DNA of 64,000 nt. It comes from Flavobacterium sp. NG2. GTDB taxonomy: Bacteria; Bacteroidota; Bacteroidia; Flavobacteriales; Flavobacteriaceae. The translations under genes and the position numbers were made by a program. This document shows positions 33,262 through 41,901 of the stretch, in pieces; position 1 is the stretch's first letter; each line of letters begins with the position of its first letter. The DNA is taken from assembly GCF_034119845.1 (NCBI RefSeq), contig NZ_CP139420.1:2661001-2725000 (forward strand). The letters are read 5' to 3'. The notes beneath the pieces are model-generated. The model did not search any database, was not told the origin of the DNA, and saw nothing but the letters and a program-made list of their open reading frames with translations.

Positions 33262-33407
33262 AATTGAGAATTGACCTAGACCATGCTTATGCATTTAGTC
33301 GCACTCGAAAAGGCAGTTGGGCAATTGCCAACCTGCTTAGCACATCACGAAAACCAAAATTTAAATAATACTTTAAGTAGAGTCCTATTTTAGGTTCAAC
33401 CATTACT
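33262..33407 (+). pseudogene. Degenerate duplicate of the group II intron ORF 3' segment
   Basis: This stretch repeats 33815-33925 with many point changes (shared words include GCATTTAGTCGCACTCG and GGTTGGGCAATTG or near variants). It is split by an extra segment of about 48 bases (about 33331-33378) before AGAGTCCTATTTTAGG resumes. It is therefore a broken relic that lies upstream of the better copy in the same orientation. Confidence 0.75.
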
Positions 33408-33721: not shown

Positions 33722-34012
33722 ATGGGCAAATTACGGGCTATAGACGGCTGGCTTAGAAACCGACTTCGATATTGTATTTGGCACGATTGGAAGAAGCCTG
33801 AAAGGAAAAGGAAAAACCTGATTCGATTAGGAGTTGACCAAGACCACGCTTACGCATTTAGTCGCACTCGCAAAGGCGGTTGGGCAATTGCACAGAGTCC
33901 TATTTTAGGCTCGACCATTACTTTGAAACGGCTAAGGCAAAAAGGCTATCAATCCTTGACAGATGTTTACATCGAACTTAATCCACCGTTTTGCGAACCG
34001 CCGAGTACGTGA
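33722..34012 (+). pseudogene. C-terminal fragment of a group II intron reverse transcriptase/maturase
   Basis: The 96-residue frame LRAIDGWLRNRLRYCIWHDW, KKPERKRKNLIRLGVDQ, AYAFSRTRKGGWAIAQSP, LGSTITLKRLRQKGYQSLTD corresponds to the maturase (domain X/GIIM) end of LtrA-like proteins. The whole reverse transcriptase domain, with its YADD motif, is missing upstream, where palindromic repeats take its place. It cannot encode a working enzyme. It is directly followed by RNA domains V and VI of the intron and lies opposite to the cassette genes. Confidence 0.85.
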
Positions 34013-34101
34013 CCCGCTTGGCCTGTCCTGAGCGAAGTCGAAGGGCTCGGTGGTGTGAGAGGCGCACTCCGTTAGTTTCTAGCGGAGCCGTCTACTCGAT
34101 T
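33993..34101 (+). mobile_element. Group II intron 3' end (domains V-VI), decayed and interrupted
   Basis: ACCGCCGAG (33997-34005) pairs with CTCGGTGGT (34046-34054) and GTGTGAGAGG follows, as in intron domain V. Domain VI is seen as CTCCGTTAG (34067-34075) with CTAGCGGAG (34079-34087), and the intron ends in CTACTCGAT(T). About 28 bases with CTGTCCTGAGCGAAGTCGAA (from 34023), a widely dispersed repeat word, are inserted in the domain V tip. The 5' part of the intron is lost, so this is a remnant. Confidence 0.75.
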
Positions 34102-34113
34102 ATGCGCTGCCCT
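34100..34113 (-). other. Remnant attC core (R'') of the kinase cassette at the intron 3' junction
   Basis: Plus-strand TTATGCGCTGCCCT just after the intron end matches TTATGTGCAACCCT, the start of the kinase cassette read in gene direction (36181 downward), at 11 of 14 positions. This is what the outer end of that cassette should read. The intron therefore lies at the recombination point of this attC. Confidence 0.6.
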
Positions 34114-34143
34114 GCTGTTCGCCCGAAGTCGTGTCATTCAGTT

Positions 34144-36123
34144 TCAGTTTACAAGTTGTTGAAAGTGTGATTGCTTTTCCCTTAGGAAGTTCATCTTTTC
34201 TGTATTGTCGGCTTCACCGTTCTCCATCAGTATTTGTCTTGCCCTAACAATCATTGCAACTGCTTTTCTATTTTCTCCTTCATAAGAATACATATTTGCA
34301 AGTGTTACCCAAAGGTGGTCATTTGTTTGATTGTTTGAGATTACGGATTTCATAAACTCAATTGCTTCTTGTCCTTTGCCGTTTGCCTGCATATATTGAG
34401 CACGCCAACAAATAGCATTTAATATTGAAAGTTTTCTATCAAGAAGTTTCTCGCAATATAAAATTGCCTCGCTGTAGTTGGCAAGTTCTCCATTAAGTTT
34501 GACAAGTGATACAAGTGTCTGCTCATCGTCAGGGAGATGCTGTTCAACAACCTTAAAACATTTGATTGCTTTTTCATTTTGGCTTGTCAACCAATAATTG
34601 GATGCAAGGTTGAACCAATTATTTGTGTTGTCTTTGTCAACCTTAATTAAAAGTTCAAGAATACTAATTGCCTTTTCAAAATGTTTTTGTCTTGAAACTT
34701 CTGCTGCAATGTTGCTTGCATTGAAATGAAGTGTCTTTTTATCGGGAGCTAATTGGATTGCTCTCACAATCAAATCTGCCGCCAATGGAAAATTTCCTTT
34801 TTCTTCAAAAGCAATTGCAAGATTTGTCAAAGCACCTGTATTGTTTGGGTCAATGCTAATCGCTTCGGTTAAGTATCTTATTGCATTAAGCAAGTCATTC
34901 TGTTCTTTATAAAATATTCCGAGGTTGTTGCAAGTTTTAGAATTGTATGGGTCAATTTGGTAAGAAAGCAATGTCGCCTTGATGCCATCATCAATATTTC
35001 CTAATTGATATTCAATTCTACCTTTCAAACTCCAGGCAGAACTATCTTCCTTGTCTTGTTCAAGATATTTATTTATCAATTGTCTTGCCTTAGCAATGTC
35101 GCCAAGAGAAATGAATGATAAGCTTTGAATGTAAAGTTCCTTTAGAGAAGTGTCAGCTTGAGTTTTATTCTGAGGAACTTTAAGTTTTAAATTTCCTGCT
35201 ACTCGTTGCAAATCCGAAATCAATTCCCTAAATGTTTGGTAACGGTCATTAGGATTTCTTGAAAGGCATTTGTAAGCAATGCTTGAAAGCGGATGATTGA
35301 TTTCAATAAGTGGTTCTGTTAAGTGCATTAAAGCGTAATGCTCAATCGTTGTTCTTCCCTGTAGTGAATAAGGATATGCTCCTAAAAGTTGATACAGCAC
35401 CACACCAAAGCTGTAAATGTCTGAACGCAAGTCAACTTTCGTGGAGTCAAGAATTTGTTCTGGAGAAGCATATAAAATTGTTCCAAGGAATGAACCTGCG
35501 TTTGTCAATCCGACTTTTGGTTGTTCAACTTCTTGTTTCTTAAATGCAAGTTTGATTTTATTGAACAAATTTTCTTTTGGCAAATTGATTTGTTTGAGTT
35601 GTTGAAACTCACTATCAAATTTTGATAATCCAAAGTCGGTAATTTTCAAATTGCCTTCTTCGTCAACCATTAAATTATCGGGCTTTATGTCACGGTGCGA
35701 TTTAAGGCCTTTTGAAATAGCGTAGTCCATACCATAAGCAAACTGTGCAACCCACTTAATGATATTTTGTGTTGAAGTTCCGCCTTGCTTTAAATAATCA
35801 GTTATTGTGTTTCGTCTGTATTCATCAGGTGCAATGTATTCAGCCGCAATAAAGAGTTGTTCGTTTACCTCATTCACAAAAAGTGCTTTGACAATGTTGG
35901 GATGAATTCCAATTGAAATCCAAGCTTCTGCTTCTGCACGAAATCTCTGCACAGAATTCAATTCAGCTTTCTGAAATGTTTTTAGAACAAAAGGAGTAGG
36001 ATAGTTGCGGTTTGTCACCAAATAGACAACACCCATTCCCGATTTGCCTTCGCCTCCGAAAATGTTGTGAACTTTAAATTCACCTACAATTGTGTCGCCA
36101 ATCTTTAATGGTCTTATTATCAT
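34144..36123 (-). CDS. Ser/Thr protein kinase with C-terminal TPR repeats (cassette 4)
   Basis: 659 residues. The N-terminal 290 residues are a Hanks-type kinase: Gly-rich loop GGEGKSGMGVVYLV, ATP lysine in FVLKTFQ, catalytic loop HRDIKPDNLM, DFG in ITDFGLSKF, and APE-like YASPEQIL. After a linker (KVPQNKTQADTS), about nine TPR units run from residue 325 to 640 (for example AWSLKGRIEYQLGNIDDGIK and CNNLGIFYKEQNDLLNAIR). No membrane helix is present, so it should be cytoplasmic. It fills the fourth and outermost cassette of the integron-like array, 28-58 bp from each core end. Targets are unknown; such kinases occur in defence and signalling modules. Confidence 0.9.
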   Translation of the reverse strand: MIIRPLKIGDTIVGEFKVHNIFGGEGKSGMGVVYLVTNRNYPTPFVLKTFQKAELNSVQRFRAEAEAWISIGIHPNIVKALFVNEVNEQLFIAAEYIAPDEYRRNTITDYLKQGGTSTQNIIKWVAQFAYGMDYAISKGLKSHRDIKPDNLMVDEEGNLKITDFGLSKFDSEFQQLKQINLPKENLFNKIKLAFKKQEVEQPKVGLTNAGSFLGTILYASPEQILDSTKVDLRSDIYSFGVVLYQLLGAYPYSLQGRTTIEHYALMHLTEPLIEINHPLSSIAYKCLSRNPNDRYQTFRELISDLQRVAGNLKLKVPQNKTQADTSLKELYIQSLSFISLGDIAKARQLINKYLEQDKEDSSAWSLKGRIEYQLGNIDDGIKATLLSYQIDPYNSKTCNNLGIFYKEQNDLLNAIRYLTEAISIDPNNTGALTNLAIAFEEKGNFPLAADLIVRAIQLAPDKKTLHFNASNIAAEVSRQKHFEKAISILELLIKVDKDNTNNWFNLASNYWLTSQNEKAIKCFKVVEQHLPDDEQTLVSLVKLNGELANYSEAILYCEKLLDRKLSILNAICWRAQYMQANGKGQEAIEFMKSVISNNQTNDHLWVTLANMYSYEGENRKAVAMIVRARQILMENGEADNTEKMNFLREKQSHFQQLVN

Positions 36124-36173
36124 TTGTTAATTTCTTGCAGTCAGTTTGATGTTAGCACTGTCGCCATAGGGTT

Positions 36174-36309
36174 GCACATAACGTCCCCGCGCTACAAGCA
36201 GTTTGGGACTAAATTAAGCCCTATTTTCGGATTTGCCTAATCTTTCTGACACAAGACCAATTTCAAATTAAGCCTAATACCCAAATTGCTTGTAGCGTGT
36301 GTTAGCAGC
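36174..36309 (-). other. attC-like recombination site 3 (between HEPN and kinase cassettes)
   Basis: Read in gene direction it starts GCTGCTAAC and ends GTTATGTGC (AAC...GTT ends). The arms ACGCTACAAGCAATTTGGG and CCCAAACTGCTTGTAGCG pair with one mismatch. The right side carries extra unpaired bases (GGGGAC) before GTT, so the folded strand is asymmetric as in integron attC sites. The loop contains GGCTTAATTT, a word shared with site 1. The 192-bp gap holds no gene. Confidence 0.85.
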
Positions 36310-36315
36310 AGTAAA

Positions 36316-36972
36316 TTATGCCGGATTTCTCATTATAAAGTTCTGAATTCCTGAAATCAACAATTTTACTTGATCAATATTATATTCGTTGTAATTTCCA
36401 TGAGCTGCTTTATTTCTTAAGTCTAACCAAGCTGTAATACTTTTTTGGTCAATTAAGGAATAGATTTGCTGTTTACCCAAATCTTGATTTATCTGTTCTG
36501 CTCTTGTTGGTCTTCCATTCGTCTCAATAGGCAATCCGTTTTTAACAGCTATTTTTTTTAAATGACTTTCTAATGTTGAACCAGCAATTACTGCGGCTGG
36601 ATCTTTGTAACCAGTAGCTACTAAATGATCTGCCATCTCAATAAAATCTGAAAAAATTTCTGCATGAACCAATTCAGTTAGACTTTCAATGTATCCTGAT
36701 TTTAAATCATCTTTAAGGGCTTGGACAATTCCGATGATTGAAGTTAGATGAAGATGTATTAGAGGTAATCTAGTCAATATTCTTTCAACATCTAAACTGT
36801 AAGGTGATTTATCTCCAGATATTCTTTTTATTGATGAAATAGATCTTGTTACGAGACTTTGTCGTTCGTGTTTTGCTACGTCCGATAAATCTGAAACTCC
36901 TGAACGAGATTTCAGTGAATAAAAATCAGAAATGATATCTTCAAGTTGTTTTTCAAGTATTGTTTTGTCCAT
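36316..36972 (-). CDS. HEPN-like protein (cassette 3)
   Basis: 218 residues, all helical. The C-terminal half (about 115-218) has the HEPN signature RX4H as RNKAAHG in ITAWLDLRNKAAHGNYNE, with upstream helices DPAAVIAGSTLESHLKKIAV. HEPN proteins are often RNases in abortive-infection and toxin-antitoxin systems, though non-catalytic members exist. Here Arg and His are intact. The N-terminal half (KQLEDIISDFYSLKSRSG) is a separate helical part without a known name. The gene fills an 814-nt cassette: its start is 16 bp from one core and its stop 6 bp from the other. No partner toxin or antitoxin gene is beside it. Confidence 0.75.
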   Translation of the reverse strand: MDKTILEKQLEDIISDFYSLKSRSGVSDLSDVAKHERQSLVTRSISSIKRISGDKSPYSLDVERILTRLPLIHLHLTSIIGIVQALKDDLKSGYIESLTELVHAEIFSDFIEMADHLVATGYKDPAAVIAGSTLESHLKKIAVKNGLPIETNGRPTRAEQINQDLGKQQIYSLIDQKSITAWLDLRNKAAHGNYNEYNIDQVKLLISGIQNFIMRNPA

Positions 36973-36987
36973 TATATGTGTTTTATT

Positions 36988-37135
36988 GCTGCTAACGGTC
37001 TCGTATAACCGTCAGTTACGGGTTAAAGTACACAAATTTTTCGGTTTAGCACAGACGTTAGCAATTCCGAGTGGATTCGGACGTAGTCGAATCCGCCGTA
37101 ATTGCGGTTATACATTGTTGGGCACTGGCTTTTTA
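36988..37135 (-). other. attC-like recombination site 2 (between SUFU and HEPN cassettes)
   Basis: In gene direction it starts GTGCCCAAC, where GCCCAAC fits the integron core RYYYAAC exactly, and ends CCGTTAGCAGC. The arms GTATAACCGCAATTACGG and CCGTAACTGACGGTTATAC pair except for one extra base. The 94-base middle holds AACCGAAA, also found in site 1. Confidence 0.87.
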
Positions 37136-37138
37136 TTT

Positions 37139-37840
37139 TCAATTTCCAATAATTTTGTTCCAAATCGATTTGTTTGGTATTACATTTTTTCTCTTCAAAT
37201 CCAAAACTTCTTTTCCATTAGCTTTGATTAATAAGTCCAAAAATTTATTGTATCCGTTTTCTATTTTATATTCCAACTCATTTTTATAAAGCGGAAAAAC
37301 ATTATAAATATTTATCTTTCTGTTGTTTTTTTTGATTTCTGTAAAATCTTCGCCAAAAGTTACCGAAGGTAGAATTAAAGCACCAACAAATTCAGTTTCG
37401 TCGCTGTAAGGTGTCATATCTTCTTCTGCTTGAATTGTATGTCCAATTCCAATCCAAGTGTCGTAAAAATGTGGAAATTTGGCTGTTTGTTTTAGAACTG
37501 AAATAATCCAATCATTTTTATTCCCGCTGGGAAAAACTTGGTCAAATTGAATTTCTTTTGGAATTAACATCATTAATTCCGCAAATTCTAATTCAGTCGG
37601 ATTTTCTGCTCTTTCCGAAACGTTCATTTTTAACGTACTCATTCCTGAAGTCAGAAGAATATTGAATTGAGCATTTTCGGGTTTTATGAAATAAACATCA
37701 AGATGTAAATCTAATGTCGGAATTTCGTGAAAAACTGTTATTAGGTTTTCGTCAAAGAACTTGTCTAAATGTTCATCAATCCATTCAGCGTGTTCGTAGT
37801 AATGTTTTCTGTCCGAGAACGGATTTTTATATTCTGCCAT
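37139..37840 (-). CDS. Suppressor-of-fused (SUFU) domain protein (cassette 2)
   Basis: 233 residues from MAEYKNPFSDRKHYYEH. A longer frame to 37888 starts inside the neighbouring IS and must be rejected. The SUFU pattern is visible: LDLHLDVYFIKPENAQFNIL, then LLTSGMSTLKMNV, FAELMMLIPKE, NDWIISVLKQTAKFPHFYDTW, IGIGHTI, FVGALILPSV, INIYNVFPLYKNELEYKI. Bacterial SUFU proteins are often immunity proteins against polymorphic toxins. No toxin gene is seen here, which would fit an orphan immunity gene carried as a cassette (inference). The stop codon is only 3 bp from the attC core. Confidence 0.85.
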   Translation of the reverse strand: MAEYKNPFSDRKHYYEHAEWIDEHLDKFFDENLITVFHEIPTLDLHLDVYFIKPENAQFNILLTSGMSTLKMNVSERAENPTELEFAELMMLIPKEIQFDQVFPSGNKNDWIISVLKQTAKFPHFYDTWIGIGHTIQAEEDMTPYSDETEFVGALILPSVTFGEDFTEIKKNNRKINIYNVFPLYKNELEYKIENGYNKFLDLLIKANGKEVLDLKRKNVIPNKSIWNKIIGN

Positions 37841-37950
37841 TTGTTTTTTCAGCTTGTGCCCAACGTCAGTCTGTGAAAAAACTAACATTTATTTCCATCA
37901 AATATAAGTAAATAATTTTATTGTTAGCAAGAAAAGTTGTATGTTTAAAT

Positions 37951-39495
37951 ATGCAACATATCACAGGAATTCCTCGTAACCAAATGGTGTTTTCTAGTTT
38001 CGAAGACACTATTTTACCCAATAATCCCGTTCGTTTTGTAGATGCTTTTGTGGAGGCATTAGATATGGAATCTTTGGGTTTTACTGTTCAGACTCTGAAA
38101 GTCGAGGGTCGCCCCAGCTTTGATACTAAAATCTTCCTTAAAATCTATTTATATGGCTATTTGAACGGGCTTAGAAGTTCACGAAAACTCGAAAAAGAAT
38201 GTGTAAGAAACATCGAATTGCAATGGCTTTTGTGTGGTCTTATGCCGAATTACCACAGTATTTCGGATTTTAGAAAACAGAATCCATCAGGATTGCGAAA
38301 ACTCTTCAAACTCTTTGTTTCCTTTCTTAAAGATACCGATTTAATAGCAGGCGAAATCATCGCTATTGATGGCACAAAAAGCAGAGCACACAATAGCAAG
38401 AAAGCTAATTTTAGCCAAAAGAAAATAGAACGACATTTGGCTTATATCGAAGAAAAAACACAAGAATATTTAGCGCAATTAGACCAAAACGACTCGCAAG
38501 ATAATGGGATTTCAATTGCTAACATTCAAGATAAAATAGAACGATTAAAGCAGAATAAAATAGGCTATGAGCTACTAGAAGAAAAACTAAAAGCTAGTGG
38601 AGAGCCTCAGATAAGTACCACCGATGAAGATGCTCGAGCCTTATTGGTTCAAGGCGTAGTGGTAGAAGTAAGCTACAACATACAAGCGGCGGTAGATAGC
38701 AAACACAACTTGGTTGTTGCCACTCATACTATCAATCGGAATGATCTCAACGCTTTGGGAGCTATTGCTGTTGAAGCAAAAGAAAATTTGGGAGTAAAAA
38801 CCTTTACCGCTTTGGTTGACAAAGGCTATCATAATGGTAGAGAAATCACTCAATGTAAAAACCACAATATCACCACCATTGTCGCACATCCTACCCCAGG
38901 AAGAGCTAAAGATAGTGTTACCCAACCAGACTATTTAGTGGCTCAATTTCAGTACAATAAATTAGATGACACGTATACCTGTCCCCAAGGAGAAACCTTA
39001 AAAACAACAGGAAGATGGCATAAAAAAAGTGGTCGAACAGAACAAAGTGGTTACCTATTTAAGAAATACCGAACACCAGCCTGCAAGGATTGTCCCGTAA
39101 AACACCTTTGTACCAGTAGAGCGGGAGGACGGGAAATAGACCGAAGCGAATATGCCGATGCCGTAGAAGAAAACAACCAGCGTTATCAAGAAAACCCACA
39201 ACTGTACCGAACTAGGCAGGAGATTAACGAGCATATCTTCGGGACTATTAAGAGACAATGGGGGTATAACCACACCAATTTAACGGGACTGGAAAAAGTA
39301 AATGGCGAACATAGTCTAATTATGCTTGTCTATAACATCAAACGCACGATAAATATTCTTGGCGTTCCCGATTTGATTGATAAAATCAAGAACTGGAAGT
39401 CACCTTACAAGGCAAAAACCTTGTTTTTACTAAAAACGACTTATTTAAAGTTAAATACAGCCTCCAATTTTTATCAACTGAAATTTACAGCCTAA
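37951..39495 (+). CDS. IS1182-family transposase
   Basis: 514 residues from MQHITGIPRNQMVF; an upstream TTG at 37921 is in frame but unlikely. The N-terminal DUF772 domain (IFLKIYLYGYLNGLRSSRKL) is followed by the catalytic Asp in IAIDGTKSRAHNSKKANFS, the second Asp in TALVDKGYHNGREI, and the Glu in RQEINEHIFGTIKRQWGY. A Cys-rich insert (PACKDCPVKHLCTSRAGGRE) is typical of the family. The gene is intact, on the strand opposite to the cassette genes. Confidence 0.93.
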   Translation: MQHITGIPRNQMVFSSFEDTILPNNPVRFVDAFVEALDMESLGFTVQTLKVEGRPSFDTKIFLKIYLYGYLNGLRSSRKLEKECVRNIELQWLLCGLMPNYHSISDFRKQNPSGLRKLFKLFVSFLKDTDLIAGEIIAIDGTKSRAHNSKKANFSQKKIERHLAYIEEKTQEYLAQLDQNDSQDNGISIANIQDKIERLKQNKIGYELLEEKLKASGEPQISTTDEDARALLVQGVVVEVSYNIQAAVDSKHNLVVATHTINRNDLNALGAIAVEAKENLGVKTFTALVDKGYHNGREITQCKNHNITTIVAHPTPGRAKDSVTQPDYLVAQFQYNKLDDTYTCPQGETLKTTGRWHKKSGRTEQSGYLFKKYRTPACKDCPVKHLCTSRAGGREIDRSEYADAVEENNQRYQENPQLYRTRQEINEHIFGTIKRQWGYNHTNLTGLEKVNGEHSLIMLVYNIKRTINILGVPDLIDKIKNWKSPYKAKTLFLLKTTYLKLNTASNFYQLKFTA

Positions 39496-39499
39496 AAAA

Positions 39500-39524
39500 A
39501 AGAGCCTTCTTAAAAAGGCTTTAT
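39500..39524 (+). terminator. Terminator after the IS1182 transposase
   Basis: AGCCTT / AAGGCT stem with A-rich loop, preceded by an A-run and followed by TTATT, 5 bp after the stop codon. Confidence 0.5.
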
Positions 39525-39587
39525 TGGGGTTGTAGTACTGTATAATTTATGGATTTTTGGAGAAAATAGAGGTTTTTTCACAGCCTG

Positions 39588-39719
39588 ACGTTTTGCAGCT
39601 TGGCGATGTGGCGAATTAAGGAAACCTAAACTTTCGGTTAAACACTGACTTTGCAAGTACAAAACTAACTTTAAATTAAGCCCAAAACCCGCCATATTGC
39701 CAAACTGCTGTTGTGTGAT
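39588..39719 (-). other. attC-like recombination site 1 (end of cassette 1; core split by the IS)
   Basis: In gene direction it starts ATCACACAAC. Arms GCAGTTTGGCAATATGGCG and CGCCACATCGCCAAGCTGC match at 16 of 19 positions, and all three differences are transitions. The site ends AAAACGTT once the IS is removed, with GTTGGGC, a perfect GTTRRRY core. The loop contains GGCTTAATTT and AACCGAAA, words shared with sites 3 and 2. Confidence 0.87.
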
Positions 39720-39727
39720 GTTTTTTT

Positions 39728-40441
39728 TTATTTATAGTTTAATTCAGTTCCAATTCTTCTCATTTCTTTACCATATGCTTTTCTAAAATCTATATTTTCG
39801 TAATTAGTCAACTCTTCCCAAACAATGTTTATTGGATTGAAATTTATGTTTTTAAATTCTGTCGTAATAATTGGGAAATTAAAATTACTTTCTAAATCCC
39901 AATTTATTTCTTTTTTCGTGTTCTTTCTGATTACTTCTCCAATATAGACAACTAAATTATCATAGATTTCCAACATAGATTTTTCATTCCCGAAATCAAA
40001 AACTAGTTTTGATAATAAATCTAAACTTTTTGTTGAAAAATCTAATTGACTTAATTCTATTTCAAGCTTTTTTGCTAATTCATTATGTAATTCTTCAACT
40101 TTGTTAATTATCGAGTTTTTCCATACAGAATAAAAGAACCAATGCTGAATATTACTATTTCGTCCATTTTCTTTGTCAGCTTTCATTCTCTTTAGTTTCA
40201 GAACAAAATTGTCAAAATAATGTTTTTCAAATATTGTTCCTTGTCCGCCTCTTTTCTGATTGACTTCTCTTATGTACAATATTTTGTTATTATTAATTAG
40301 GAAAACTTGATTTAATATAAAATCCCCACTGTCAAATTTTTCAGTTAAAAATTCAGTATATTCATCGTGTAATAAACCTTCTGAATTTGCTAATTCAAAA
40401 GCTTCTTTTTTGGATAATTTCTGTATGTTAGGTTTTTTCAT
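39728..40441 (-). CDS. Hypothetical protein (cassette 1)
   Basis: 237 residues, no known family recognised. It is soluble, charged and mostly helical. It starts KKPNIQKLSKKEAFELANSE and has a possible beta stretch NQVFLINNNKILYIREVNQ. A helical core follows (HWFFYSVWKNSIINKVEELH, LAKKLEIELSQLDFSTKSLD). It ends FRKAYGKEMRRIGTELNYK. No signal peptide or membrane segment is present. The gene fills its cassette tightly: the start is 6 bp from the core GTTGTGTGAT and the stop 9 bp from the matching core. It is next to the recombinase and so would be the most recently inserted cassette if insertion is at the proximal site (inference). Confidence 0.75.
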   Translation of the reverse strand: MKKPNIQKLSKKEAFELANSEGLLHDEYTEFLTEKFDSGDFILNQVFLINNNKILYIREVNQKRGGQGTIFEKHYFDNFVLKLKRMKADKENGRNSNIQHWFFYSVWKNSIINKVEELHNELAKKLEIELSQLDFSTKSLDLLSKLVFDFGNEKSMLEIYDNLVVYIGEVIRKNTKKEINWDLESNFNFPIITTEFKNINFNPINIVWEELTNYENIDFRKAYGKEMRRIGTELNYK

Positions 40442-40446
40442 AAAAT

Positions 40447-40539
40447 ATCACACAACTAGTATATATGCGAAACAAACCTTCGCATAGCTACCCGAATTTA
40501 GGTGTATAGGCGAAGGTTTGTTTCGCTTTTATTGCTGTT
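40447..40539 (-). other. attI/attC-like site next to the recombinase gene
   Basis: Two perfect 17-bp inverted arms (40467-40483, GCGAAACAAACCTTCGC, and 40510-40526) enclose a 26-base loop. On the outside lie AAC and GTT trinucleotides (40454-40456; 40537-40539), as in the cassette sites. It separates the recombinase stop (40560) from the first cassette. By position it is the primary attachment site. The perfect arms, unlike the mismatched arms of the other sites, may indicate a different role; a simple hairpin without T-run is the alternative. Confidence 0.7.
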
Positions 40540-40559
40540 TCAAATATATTATTTTTTTC

Positions 40560-41603
40560 TTACAAATCATCAAAGGGACTTTTTATTTGTTGCAAACTTT
40601 TGGTGCTTACATGTGTATATATTTCCGTGGTTTTGCTGCTGTTGTGTCCTAGCAATTCTTGTATGTATCGCAAGTCTGTGCCACTCTCAAGTAAATGGGT
40701 AGCGTAACTGTGGCGCAACCAGTGTAACGTGACTGGTTTTTTGATCTCTGTTTTTGCAAGAGCTTGCTTTAGTATAAGTTGTAAACTCCTTTCATCATAG
40801 GCTTTGCCTATGGTTTGACCTTCAAACAAAAATTCTTTCGGTTTGTAGGTTTTATAATATTCTCTTAGCAATTCTAAGATCTTTGGACTCAAAGGGACTA
40901 TGCGGTCTTTTTTGCCTTTTGAATTCTTTAGCAAAACAATGTTGCGCTTGGAGTCGATATCAAGCGGTTTTAAAGCAAGTAGCTCGCCACAGCGCAATCC
41001 GCAGCTGTAAATTACCGAAAGCATGGTTTTGTGTTTGATGTTGCTATGTGCTTCCAAAATTGATTTTACTTCTTCCTTACTCAAAACATTAGGTAGAACT
41101 TTGGCTCGTTTGGGTCTATGGATTTTGTCTACGTTTATTTTGGTTTCCCGTATGGTCATAAAAAAAAGTTTTATACCATTGACCAGTTGATTCTGATAAG
41201 ATGATGAAAGTTTATTTTTCAATATATACTCATTATTGTAAACAATTACATCTTCATTTGTAATTTCGGTAATAGGTTTTTCTCTATAAAACACCAAAAA
41301 TGATTTTAGTGCTTCGCTATAGGTTGCAATGGTGCTTTCAGCATAGCGTTTGGAGCGCATCCATTGTTTAAACTTTTCGATTTGAGTAATTCCTTCTTCG
41401 GAAGGGAGTGAGTGAAAAAGTGGTGTTATTTTAAATCGTTCTCGGTTTTCTTCAGTATCAGGAAGATGCCAAGCTAATAATGATTGACTCCATCTTGCTC
41501 CTTCAAATTGTTTGATTCGTTCGATTAGTTTGACGTTCTTTTCAAAATAAACGGCGATTCTGTTTGAACCTTTGTGTTTAATGGGTTTTGCTGACCAATT
41601 CAT
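40560..41603 (-). CDS. Tyrosine recombinase of the integron-like cassette array
   Basis: 347 residues. An N-terminal extra domain (about 1-60, RIAVYFEKNVKLIERIKQFE then GARWSQSLLAWHLP) is common in Bacteroidota integrases. The SAM-like core-binding domain follows (about 75-165, IEKFKQWMRSKRYAESTIAT). The catalytic domain has all active residues: Arg in YSCGLRCGELL, Lys in KGKKDRIVPL, His-x-x-Arg in LHWLRHSYATHLL, His in LGHNSSKTT and Tyr in IYTHVS. The segment between the second and third patch is short, so the additional helix that marks IntI integrases seems absent and the protein looks XerC/D-like. It is in the same orientation as the cassettes and upstream of them. Confidence 0.92.
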   Translation of the reverse strand: MNWSAKPIKHKGSNRIAVYFEKNVKLIERIKQFEGARWSQSLLAWHLPDTEENRERFKITPLFHSLPSEEGITQIEKFKQWMRSKRYAESTIATYSEALKSFLVFYREKPITEITNEDVIVYNNEYILKNKLSSSYQNQLVNGIKLFFMTIRETKINVDKIHRPKRAKVLPNVLSKEEVKSILEAHSNIKHKTMLSVIYSCGLRCGELLALKPLDIDSKRNIVLLKNSKGKKDRIVPLSPKILELLREYYKTYKPKEFLFEGQTIGKAYDERSLQLILKQALAKTEIKKPVTLHWLRHSYATHLLESGTDLRYIQELLGHNSSKTTEIYTHVSTKSLQQIKSPFDDL

Positions 41604-41901
41604 TCTTAGTTGTTTAAGAAATAAAGATAATTATTTTTCTTATTATTTAATTAAGGCAATAGTCGCTTTTATCACTATTTTGGAAAGGAAAGTCTCTTTT
41701 CTAGCCCAGATGGAAGCGGCATCCTCTTGTGGTAGCGATAGCGGACACAATAGATATAGCGTACAGCTGGTGGACTGTTACTTTTTGAATGATGATGTAA
41801 ATAGCTCCTTAAAAAAAATAACTTTAGATTAACAGCGCTAATAAAATATAAATAATTATTTTTGCAAACTGTTAAAATTAATGTTATTACATCACTATAG
41901 T
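41604..41901. promoter_or_regulatory. Intergenic region with dispersed repeat and promoter of the PLP enzyme gene
   Basis: This divergent 298-bp gap marks the right border of the accessory region. TATTTTTG at 41857-41864 is a perfect TAnnTTTG box. It lies upstream of ATG codons at 41881 and 41902; the first would leave a leader of about 13 bases. A dispersed hairpin element occupies 41701-41775. Confidence 0.55.
41701..41775 (+). repeat. Dispersed hairpin element, copy 1
   Basis: Begins CTAGCCCAGATGGAAGCGGC, then ATCCTCTTGTGG, and ends GATATAGCGTACAGCTGG. The same pattern (TAGCCCtGATnGnAGCGGCATCC...GATATAGCGGAcAGC) recurs at 51922-52014 and 60466-60545 in the opposite orientation. Confidence 0.75.

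Follow-up and report, generated by a model that had tools for sequence, protein, structure and literature searches.

The locus described here raises the question of whether single genes can be captured and exchanged in the manner of integron cassettes by a recombinase other than IntI. It lies in a 64,000-nucleotide (nt) stretch of Flavobacterium sp. NG2 (NZ_CP139420.1, positions 2,661,001–2,725,000), referred to below as the window, in a genome consisting of a single 4.15-Mb contig. A first-pass annotation, made from the sequence alone, had described a tyrosine recombinase gene followed by four co-oriented open reading frames (ORFs) with long palindromes at their boundaries, and all of these were found at the positions given. 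From the comparisons reported below, the locus is very probably an integron-like cassette-capture platform with a non-IntI group of recombinases and a site architecture of its own.

Hairpin sites and cassettes

Homologous loci were taken as the best 80 of 214 relatives of the window recombinase, mostly from Flavobacterium. An initial test of the cassette ends gave at least eight contiguous matches (AAC counted) in 44 of 63 loci, compared with 52 of 930 swapped controls. Walking from the attI-like site behind the recombinase gene yielded 95 candidate cassettes and 76 sites, 56 of which had an inner length of 117–120 nt. Seven of the 76 extracted sites were excluded as doubtful and a covariance model was trained on the remaining 69. 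The bottom strand of these sites has 18 pairs in its consensus, 17 of which show compensatory changes on both sides, and one G·T pair was present in 67 of the 69 sites; as G·T on the bottom strand corresponds to A·C on the top strand, folding of the bottom strand is favoured. The bottom strand was predicted to be the more stable in 68 of the 69 circle forms, a count that is favoured by the choice of the training sites by end complementarity, and in 54 of the 69 array forms. Using the inner parts only, which is free of such bias, the bottom strand was better in 50 of 69 sites and in 30 of 84 control stretches. By predicted folding the sites are attC-like imperfect hairpins with a preferred bottom strand, which is one of the criteria for an integron; their core is GTTR...G..A.

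A search with the model returned 339 sites in 100 loci. In the window the model, which was built from other genomes only, found three sites at 64–123 bits, the next-best match in the 64 kb reaching about 15 bits (15.1). At E ≤ 1 the sites had no match in Rfam. Twelve loci with a true IntI (219,712 nt) were also free of model matches at this threshold; classical attC sites were few there in a crude search, so that this control does not demonstrate that the model rejects classical attC arrays.

In total, 302 cassettes with a median length of 876 nt were delimited in 60 loci; ten of 160 site matches extended beyond the alignment limit and fall outside the cassette counts, one of the 302 (in L034) spans the recombinase gene itself and some contain an insertion sequence (IS). 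An ORF of at least 60 amino acids (aa) was present in 281 cassettes; the longest lay on the cassette strand in 268 of these 281 and the median fill was 89% of the cassette minus its site. The ORFs are diverse: 59 Pfam families were matched in 100 of the 271 scanned, none in more than two.

The ends of a cassette match each other. For the 299 cassettes with both ends (three of the 302 had no clear end), complementarity between start and end was 8.54 of 10 for own pairs and 3.80 for other pairs, and a match of at least 8 of 10 was reached by 245 of 299 own pairs compared with 1722 of 89,102 other pairs (1.9%). The first 14 nt of the cassette pair with its own end, A standing opposite C at position 11 in 246 of 299. 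In the window, the ends likewise mirror their own starts (GTTGTGTGATATTT/AAACATCACACAAC, GTTGGGCACAAGCT/AGCCAGTGCCCAAC and GTTAGCAGCAATAA/TTACTGCTGCTAAC). The R-box core consensus of integrons is GTTRRRY/RYYYAAC; it was found at 18 of the 299 starts and at the same number of ends. Cassette 2 of the window has this core.

Whole cassettes are shared between arrays. The first cassette of L046 is the third of L071 (698/698 nt, 99.6% identity), the recombinase genes of the two loci being only 78% identical, and the first cassette of L053 recurs in Kaistella (L062; 1437 nt, 93.9%), beside recombinases only 70% identical. Copies of a cassette within a single locus were found in L046, L149 and L152. 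The first-pass annotation had named two outcomes that would speak against cassette capture, namely related genomes with the same genes in the same order and no exchange, and homologous recombinase genes lacking such palindromes. Instead, cassettes occur at different positions in different arrays and are duplicated within arrays, and sites are present in 37 of the 40 recombinase loci with at least 3 kb of downstream sequence.

The home site and the recombinase

Downstream of the recombinase stop codon in the 80 loci the usual order was palindromic boxes, TATATACAA or a close variant, GTT and then unrelated sequence. In 85 pairs of loci with an identity of at least 80% (mean 85%) in the 110 nt that precede GTT, the mean identity after GTT was 53%, with none at 70% or more and an unrelated baseline of 50%; since related loci share ancestry, these pairs are not independent. 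In one pair (L018 and L019) the 110 nt preceding GTT are identical. The boxes covary: columns 41–47/75–81 pair in 89.6% of cells and columns 75–79/87–91 in 91.8%, counts that are favoured by the omission of six of the 71 attI stretches (L019 and L048 as near-copies; L029, L072, L078 and L079 as differently spaced). Pairs with the outermost box reached only 53.7 and 52.4%, this box being shifted by one column in part of the rows, as judged by reading. In the window, the palindrome at 40467–40526, just before the GTT at 40456 where the first cassette starts, was absent from the list in the first-pass annotation.

No attI boundary was obtained by the rule used in eight of 81 loci; several end earlier or contain Ns, and L035, L038 and L041 differ in sequence there. 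In these three and in L066, a hairpin (for example AAGATGTGAAAAATCGCCC...TTTTTCACATC) comes after attI, the usual GTT being missing in three of the four; this is perhaps another kind of insertion. Inspection of distant relatives by eye, uncounted, showed a palindrome and then GTT shortly after the gene in many loci, with no such feature seen in some. The motif TAnnTTTG, a −7-like promoter consensus, was present between position −30 of the stop codon and attI in 45 of 73 loci, compared with 18 of 264 background stretches.

The first-pass annotation had held the recombinase to be other than IntI, and this agrees with all three lines examined. Its best NCBIfam models were the XerA-type NF040815 (215.9 bits, narrowly missing the curated cutoff of 220) and the IntI model TIGR02249, which matched in two stretches at 200.5 bits (cutoff 265). 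Among PDB sequences the best match was XerA (5hxy), and an alignment with VchIntIA (2a3v) was also obtained. The IntI-specific insertion is absent according to both the alignments and the motif spacing: the distance from GLR to HxLRH was 91–92 in 68 of 72 near relatives, versus 133 in the IntI rows that gave a value (six of nine). For the window protein and four relatives the pattern gave 84; residues G202 and H294 give 92 for the window protein. In a rebuilt tree the eight IntI rows formed one group (100/100) and the 27 rows of the window-recombinase family another (86/74), the two together being set against two Xer proteins (99/95); this tree omits L147, a misread IntI row, and D_L151, carried long-branch warnings and includes no XerA. 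In an earlier tree that included both, the distant rows did not come together as a single group. R204, H294, R297, H320 and Y329, which we take to be catalytic by analogy with the tyrosine recombinase fold, are invariant across 38 aligned sequences.

An N-terminal domain precedes the core-binding domain in the near relatives and in most of the distant relatives read; the L151 recombinase seems to be without it. The predicted structure of the recombinase was closest to XerA and IntI structures, the N-terminal domain having the order bbabba. In a Foldseek search with this domain the first row was the HARP domain of SMARCAL1 (4o66), a domain type that binds branched DNA; this row was nonsignificant (E 0.7, probability 0.35, TM 0.38); HARP was not among the Pfam rows of six N-termini or among the VIA-align rows shown, and a profile search of the domain against PDB sequences gave nothing convincing. 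The host genome has four weaker recombinase matches elsewhere (25–35% identity), its XerC/XerD-like genes being separate (L002 and L003; 31 and 35% identical to the window recombinase). In IMG/VR a single remote match was found, with 29% identity over 61 residues.

From these features a working model can be proposed. The recombinase would bind its own attI-like site directly behind its gene as well as the folded bottom strand of the attC-like hairpin of a cassette, with strand exchange at AAC/GTT. Circular one-gene cassettes would be inserted at attI, could be transcribed from a promoter lying where the recombinase gene ends, and might later be excised, duplicated or moved.

Distribution and rival explanations

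Sites and recombinase genes occur together. In the 80 homologous loci, 195 of 198 model sites follow the recombinase gene in the same orientation; three are upstream, despite 702,923 nt having been searched upstream and 356,867 nt downstream. Four of the flanking genes in the window had no counterpart at E ≤ 1e-30 in the sequences beside these loci. Twenty distant regions, picked after the genome-wide results were known and partly since sites lay near, contained sites in 17 cases, one of them (L159) with 21 sites in 17 kb. On a Chryseobacterium plasmid the recombinase gene is accompanied by five sites, and annotated genes for an IS110-family transposase and a group II intron reverse transcriptase lie between them.

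Genome samples contained one genome per species, and the genome lists behind the co-occurrence and IntI overlap counts were compiled by hand. Among 149 genomes of the family to which the window belongs, sites (E ≤ 1e-5) were found in 121 and a recombinase relative (E ≤ 1e-60) in 89: both in 85, the recombinase only in four, sites only in 36 and neither in 24 (Fisher p 6e-8). In a sample of the phylum, sites (E ≤ 1e-6) were present in 118 of 247 genomes and 67 of 121 genera. The view in the first-pass annotation that integrons are mainly proteobacterial needs qualifying for this phylum, true IntI being present in 70 of the same 247 genomes, 23 of which have both IntI and sites; none of the 70 belongs to the family of the window (f1, presumably Flavobacteriaceae; 27 f1 genomes listed).

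Several observations weigh against a platform of this kind. Three loci with at least 3 kb of downstream sequence (L048, L061 and L085) and three of the distant regions (L158, L164 and L167) have no site, and in the distant L151 the sites are at the other side of the recombinase gene, resembling the layout of a divergent integron. Sites without a recombinase relative at E ≤ 1e-60 were found in 36 of the 149 family genomes. Ten of the 13 sites in the genome of NG2 are outside the window. One of these belongs to a second attI-like array with cassettes, at about 1.88 Mb (L089), which retains only the last recombinase codons, as judged by reading. Of the cassettes, 21 of 302 lack an ORF of at least 60 aa and 54 of 299 fall under the end-matching threshold. 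The choice of training sites and the shared ancestry of the breakpoint pairs, noted above, belong here as well.

A true integron, of the same family and mechanism, would also combine a recombinase with attI, attC and cassettes, its IntI having diverged so far as to be hard to recognize. The alignment with VchIntIA, the 200 bits with TIGR02249 and the grouping with IntI against the two Xer proteins are consistent with this, and passages of PMC8138268 describe the insertion as incompletely conserved in an integron-like subgroup. However, the TIGR02249 cutoff is not reached and the match is in two stretches, the GLR–HxLRH spacing is 91–92 in most near relatives and 133 in IntI, IntI forms a separate group at 100/100 and GTTRRRY is found in 18 of 299 only; a diverged IntI is improbable. 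Terminator-like or repetitive extragenic palindromic (REP)-like repeats between unrelated genes, beside a resident Xer-type protein, would be intergenic as the palindromes are, and some could be distant from the recombinase, as is observed; matching of a cassette's own ends, cassettes shared from boundary to boundary and a sharp breakpoint at attI are unexpected of terminators or REP elements, and we give this explanation hardly any weight.

That the cassettes are real and are moved in trans by another recombinase, the neighbouring gene being a relic or a regulator, would account for the 36 genomes with sites and no close recombinase relative and for the attI-like array without a recombinase gene in the NG2 genome. 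It sits poorly with the presence of sites in 37 of 40 loci with enough downstream sequence, with five residues invariant in 38 sequences and with an attI-like end, seen by eye, behind the gene in distant relatives too, and seems to us unlikely. We therefore return to the integron-like platform. As in integrons, an attI-like site with a precise insertion point lies beside the recombinase gene, and arrays share co-oriented single-gene cassettes; the IntI-specific domain and a place in the IntI clade were not found, and few cassettes (18 of 299) have the GTTRRRY core. With the plan shared and the IntI features failing, the system appears, as far as comparison goes, to work like an integron and, by the features tested, to stand outside the IntI family.

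With less assurance, we favour a wider proposal: a non-IntI family of tyrosine recombinases would have acquired or retained a capacity to recombine folded single-stranded hairpins without the IntI domain and would run a cassette economy, in part with long arrays, throughout the Bacteroidota that searches keyed to the IntI domain miss, integron recombination then having arisen twice or predating the IntI domain. In this proposal the hairpin may be recognized not by an IntI insertion but by the N-terminal domain, which is possibly HARP-like.

The window locus and known systems

The features of the locus are listed in Table 1. Of the four palindromic boundaries proposed in the first-pass annotation three match the covariance model (E 1e-12 to 1e-25), one of them split by an IS. 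Its net lengths of 867, 868 and 814 nt agree with the coordinates, while the end of the fourth (kinase) cassette remained unconfirmed: near 34.1 kb neither the covariance model nor a search by eye gave a site. A degraded end at 34103–34116 (by eye) and complementary arms at 34075–34094/33741–33760 may be the remains of this boundary.

Table 1. Features of the cassette array in the window (window coordinates)
Feature	Position	Strand	Evidence
347-aa tyrosine recombinase with SAM-like core-binding and catalytic domains after an N-terminal domain of ~60 aa	40560–41603	−	Pfam PF00589/PF13495, NCBIfam NF040815
TATATTTG, predicted −7-like promoter motif directly 3′ of the recombinase stop	40541–40548	−	TAnnTTTG enrichment among loci
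attI-like site: boxes 40520–40526, 40510–40516, 40477–40483 and 40467–40473, then TATATACTA and GTT (40454–40456)	40454–40526	−	Conserved before GTT, divergent beyond; boxes covary
Cassette 1; ORF 39728–40441 (237 aa)	39590–40456	−	Start GTTGTGTGATATTT complementary to end 39710–39723
attC-like site of cassette 1, cut by IS at the AAC/GTT junction	39575–39723	−	Covariance model 106 bits; match extends into IS end
IS1182-family insertion, transposase 37921–39495	37867–39587	+	NF033551 E 4e-101; ACGT at 37863–37866 and 39588–39591
Cassette 2; SUFU-domain ORF 37139–37888, listed ORF start upstream of cassette start	36997–37864	−	End pairing; PF05076
attC-like site of cassette 2	36983–37130	−	Covariance model 64 bits, E 2e-12
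Cassette 3; ORF 36316–36972, weak HEPN match	36183–36996	−	End pairing at full score; PF18735 below cutoff
attC-like site of cassette 3	36169–36314	−	Covariance model 123 bits, E 1e-25
Putative cassette 4; ORF 34144–36123 (protein kinase and TPR); end degraded or lost	34103–36182	−	Begins at confirmed site; far boundary without model match

The 237-aa ORF of cassette 1 matched no Pfam, NCBIfam or PADLOC family. In PADLOC the kinase–TPR ORF of cassette 4 hits PD-T4-6 defence kinases (best E 1e-42), perhaps on account of its kinase domain only. An ORF at 33722–34012 (+), at the distal end of the array and amid the possible remains of its last boundary, has a weak likeness to the C-terminal part of group II intron maturases (GIIM, E 8e-4, below cutoff), and a second maturase-like fragment was seen by eye at about 33270–33400. 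A Flavo-1 RNA (RF01705, 49.5 bits, above the gathering score) lies upstream of the recombinase gene at 41699–41777 (+).

IS1182-type elements with ends CAGGCTGTGAAAAAAC or close to it were seen inside sites, between AACGT and ACGTT, in seven genomes (window 37867–39587; L006, L011, L016, L026, L036, L043 and L088/L092), and apparently target the recombination point; a loose pattern for the IS ends also matched elsewhere, without the AACGT/ACGTT flanks. IS1111-attC elements are reported to target integron attC sites similarly.

Among the papers listed in searches of the open-licence PMC literature, with preprints outside their scope, no description of such a system was found. The IntI insertion is called essential for integron function in passages of PMC8138268, the same source that reports its incomplete conservation in one subgroup, and IntI is detected by this additional domain in PMC9668308; since detection relies on it, surveys of that kind would probably not call the window gene IntI. 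For Bacteroidetes proper, the find reported with IntegronFinder 2.0 was a complete integron in Salinibacter (PMC9024848), and a review lists Bacteroidota among the phyla with integrons (PMC8618304). The occurrence of the same array type in many related bacteria may thus represent a major, apparently undescribed route of gene swapping. If so, an architecture kept without the IntI domain would separate the function from its defining protein, the origin of hairpin-site recombination could be tested through comparison of both recombinase types and, given the spread of the sites (118 of 247 genomes) and the diversity of the cassette genes, a gene pool would be uncovered.

Among known systems, XerA, XerC and XerD provide the best NCBIfam and PDB sequence matches (NF040815 and 5hxy) and likewise have no IntI insertion; unlike them, the recombinase described here sits at arrays, also on a plasmid, in a genome that has other XerC/XerD-like genes. 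In the Xer-dif (pdif) modules of Acinetobacter plasmids, genes are likewise carried as units that tyrosine recombinases move. Their XerC/XerD sites are short, double-stranded and used in trans, whereas here hairpins of ~146 nt accompany a home platform. Integrons with IntI share with the present system the recombinase gene, an adjacent attI with a promoter-like motif, one-gene cassettes on one strand, imperfect hairpin sites with a better-folding bottom strand, insertion at GTT, whole-cassette sharing and insertion sequences that hit the site. They differ in that the recombinase here lacks the IntI insertion and, in the near relatives and most of the distant ones read, has its core-binding domain preceded by an N-terminal domain, the two ends of a cassette correspond over 14 nt, A facing C at position 11, the core is GTTR...G..A rather than GTTRRRY and attI consists of covarying boxes. 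The recombinase gene and the array also point in the same direction here, an arrangement known in a few integrons.

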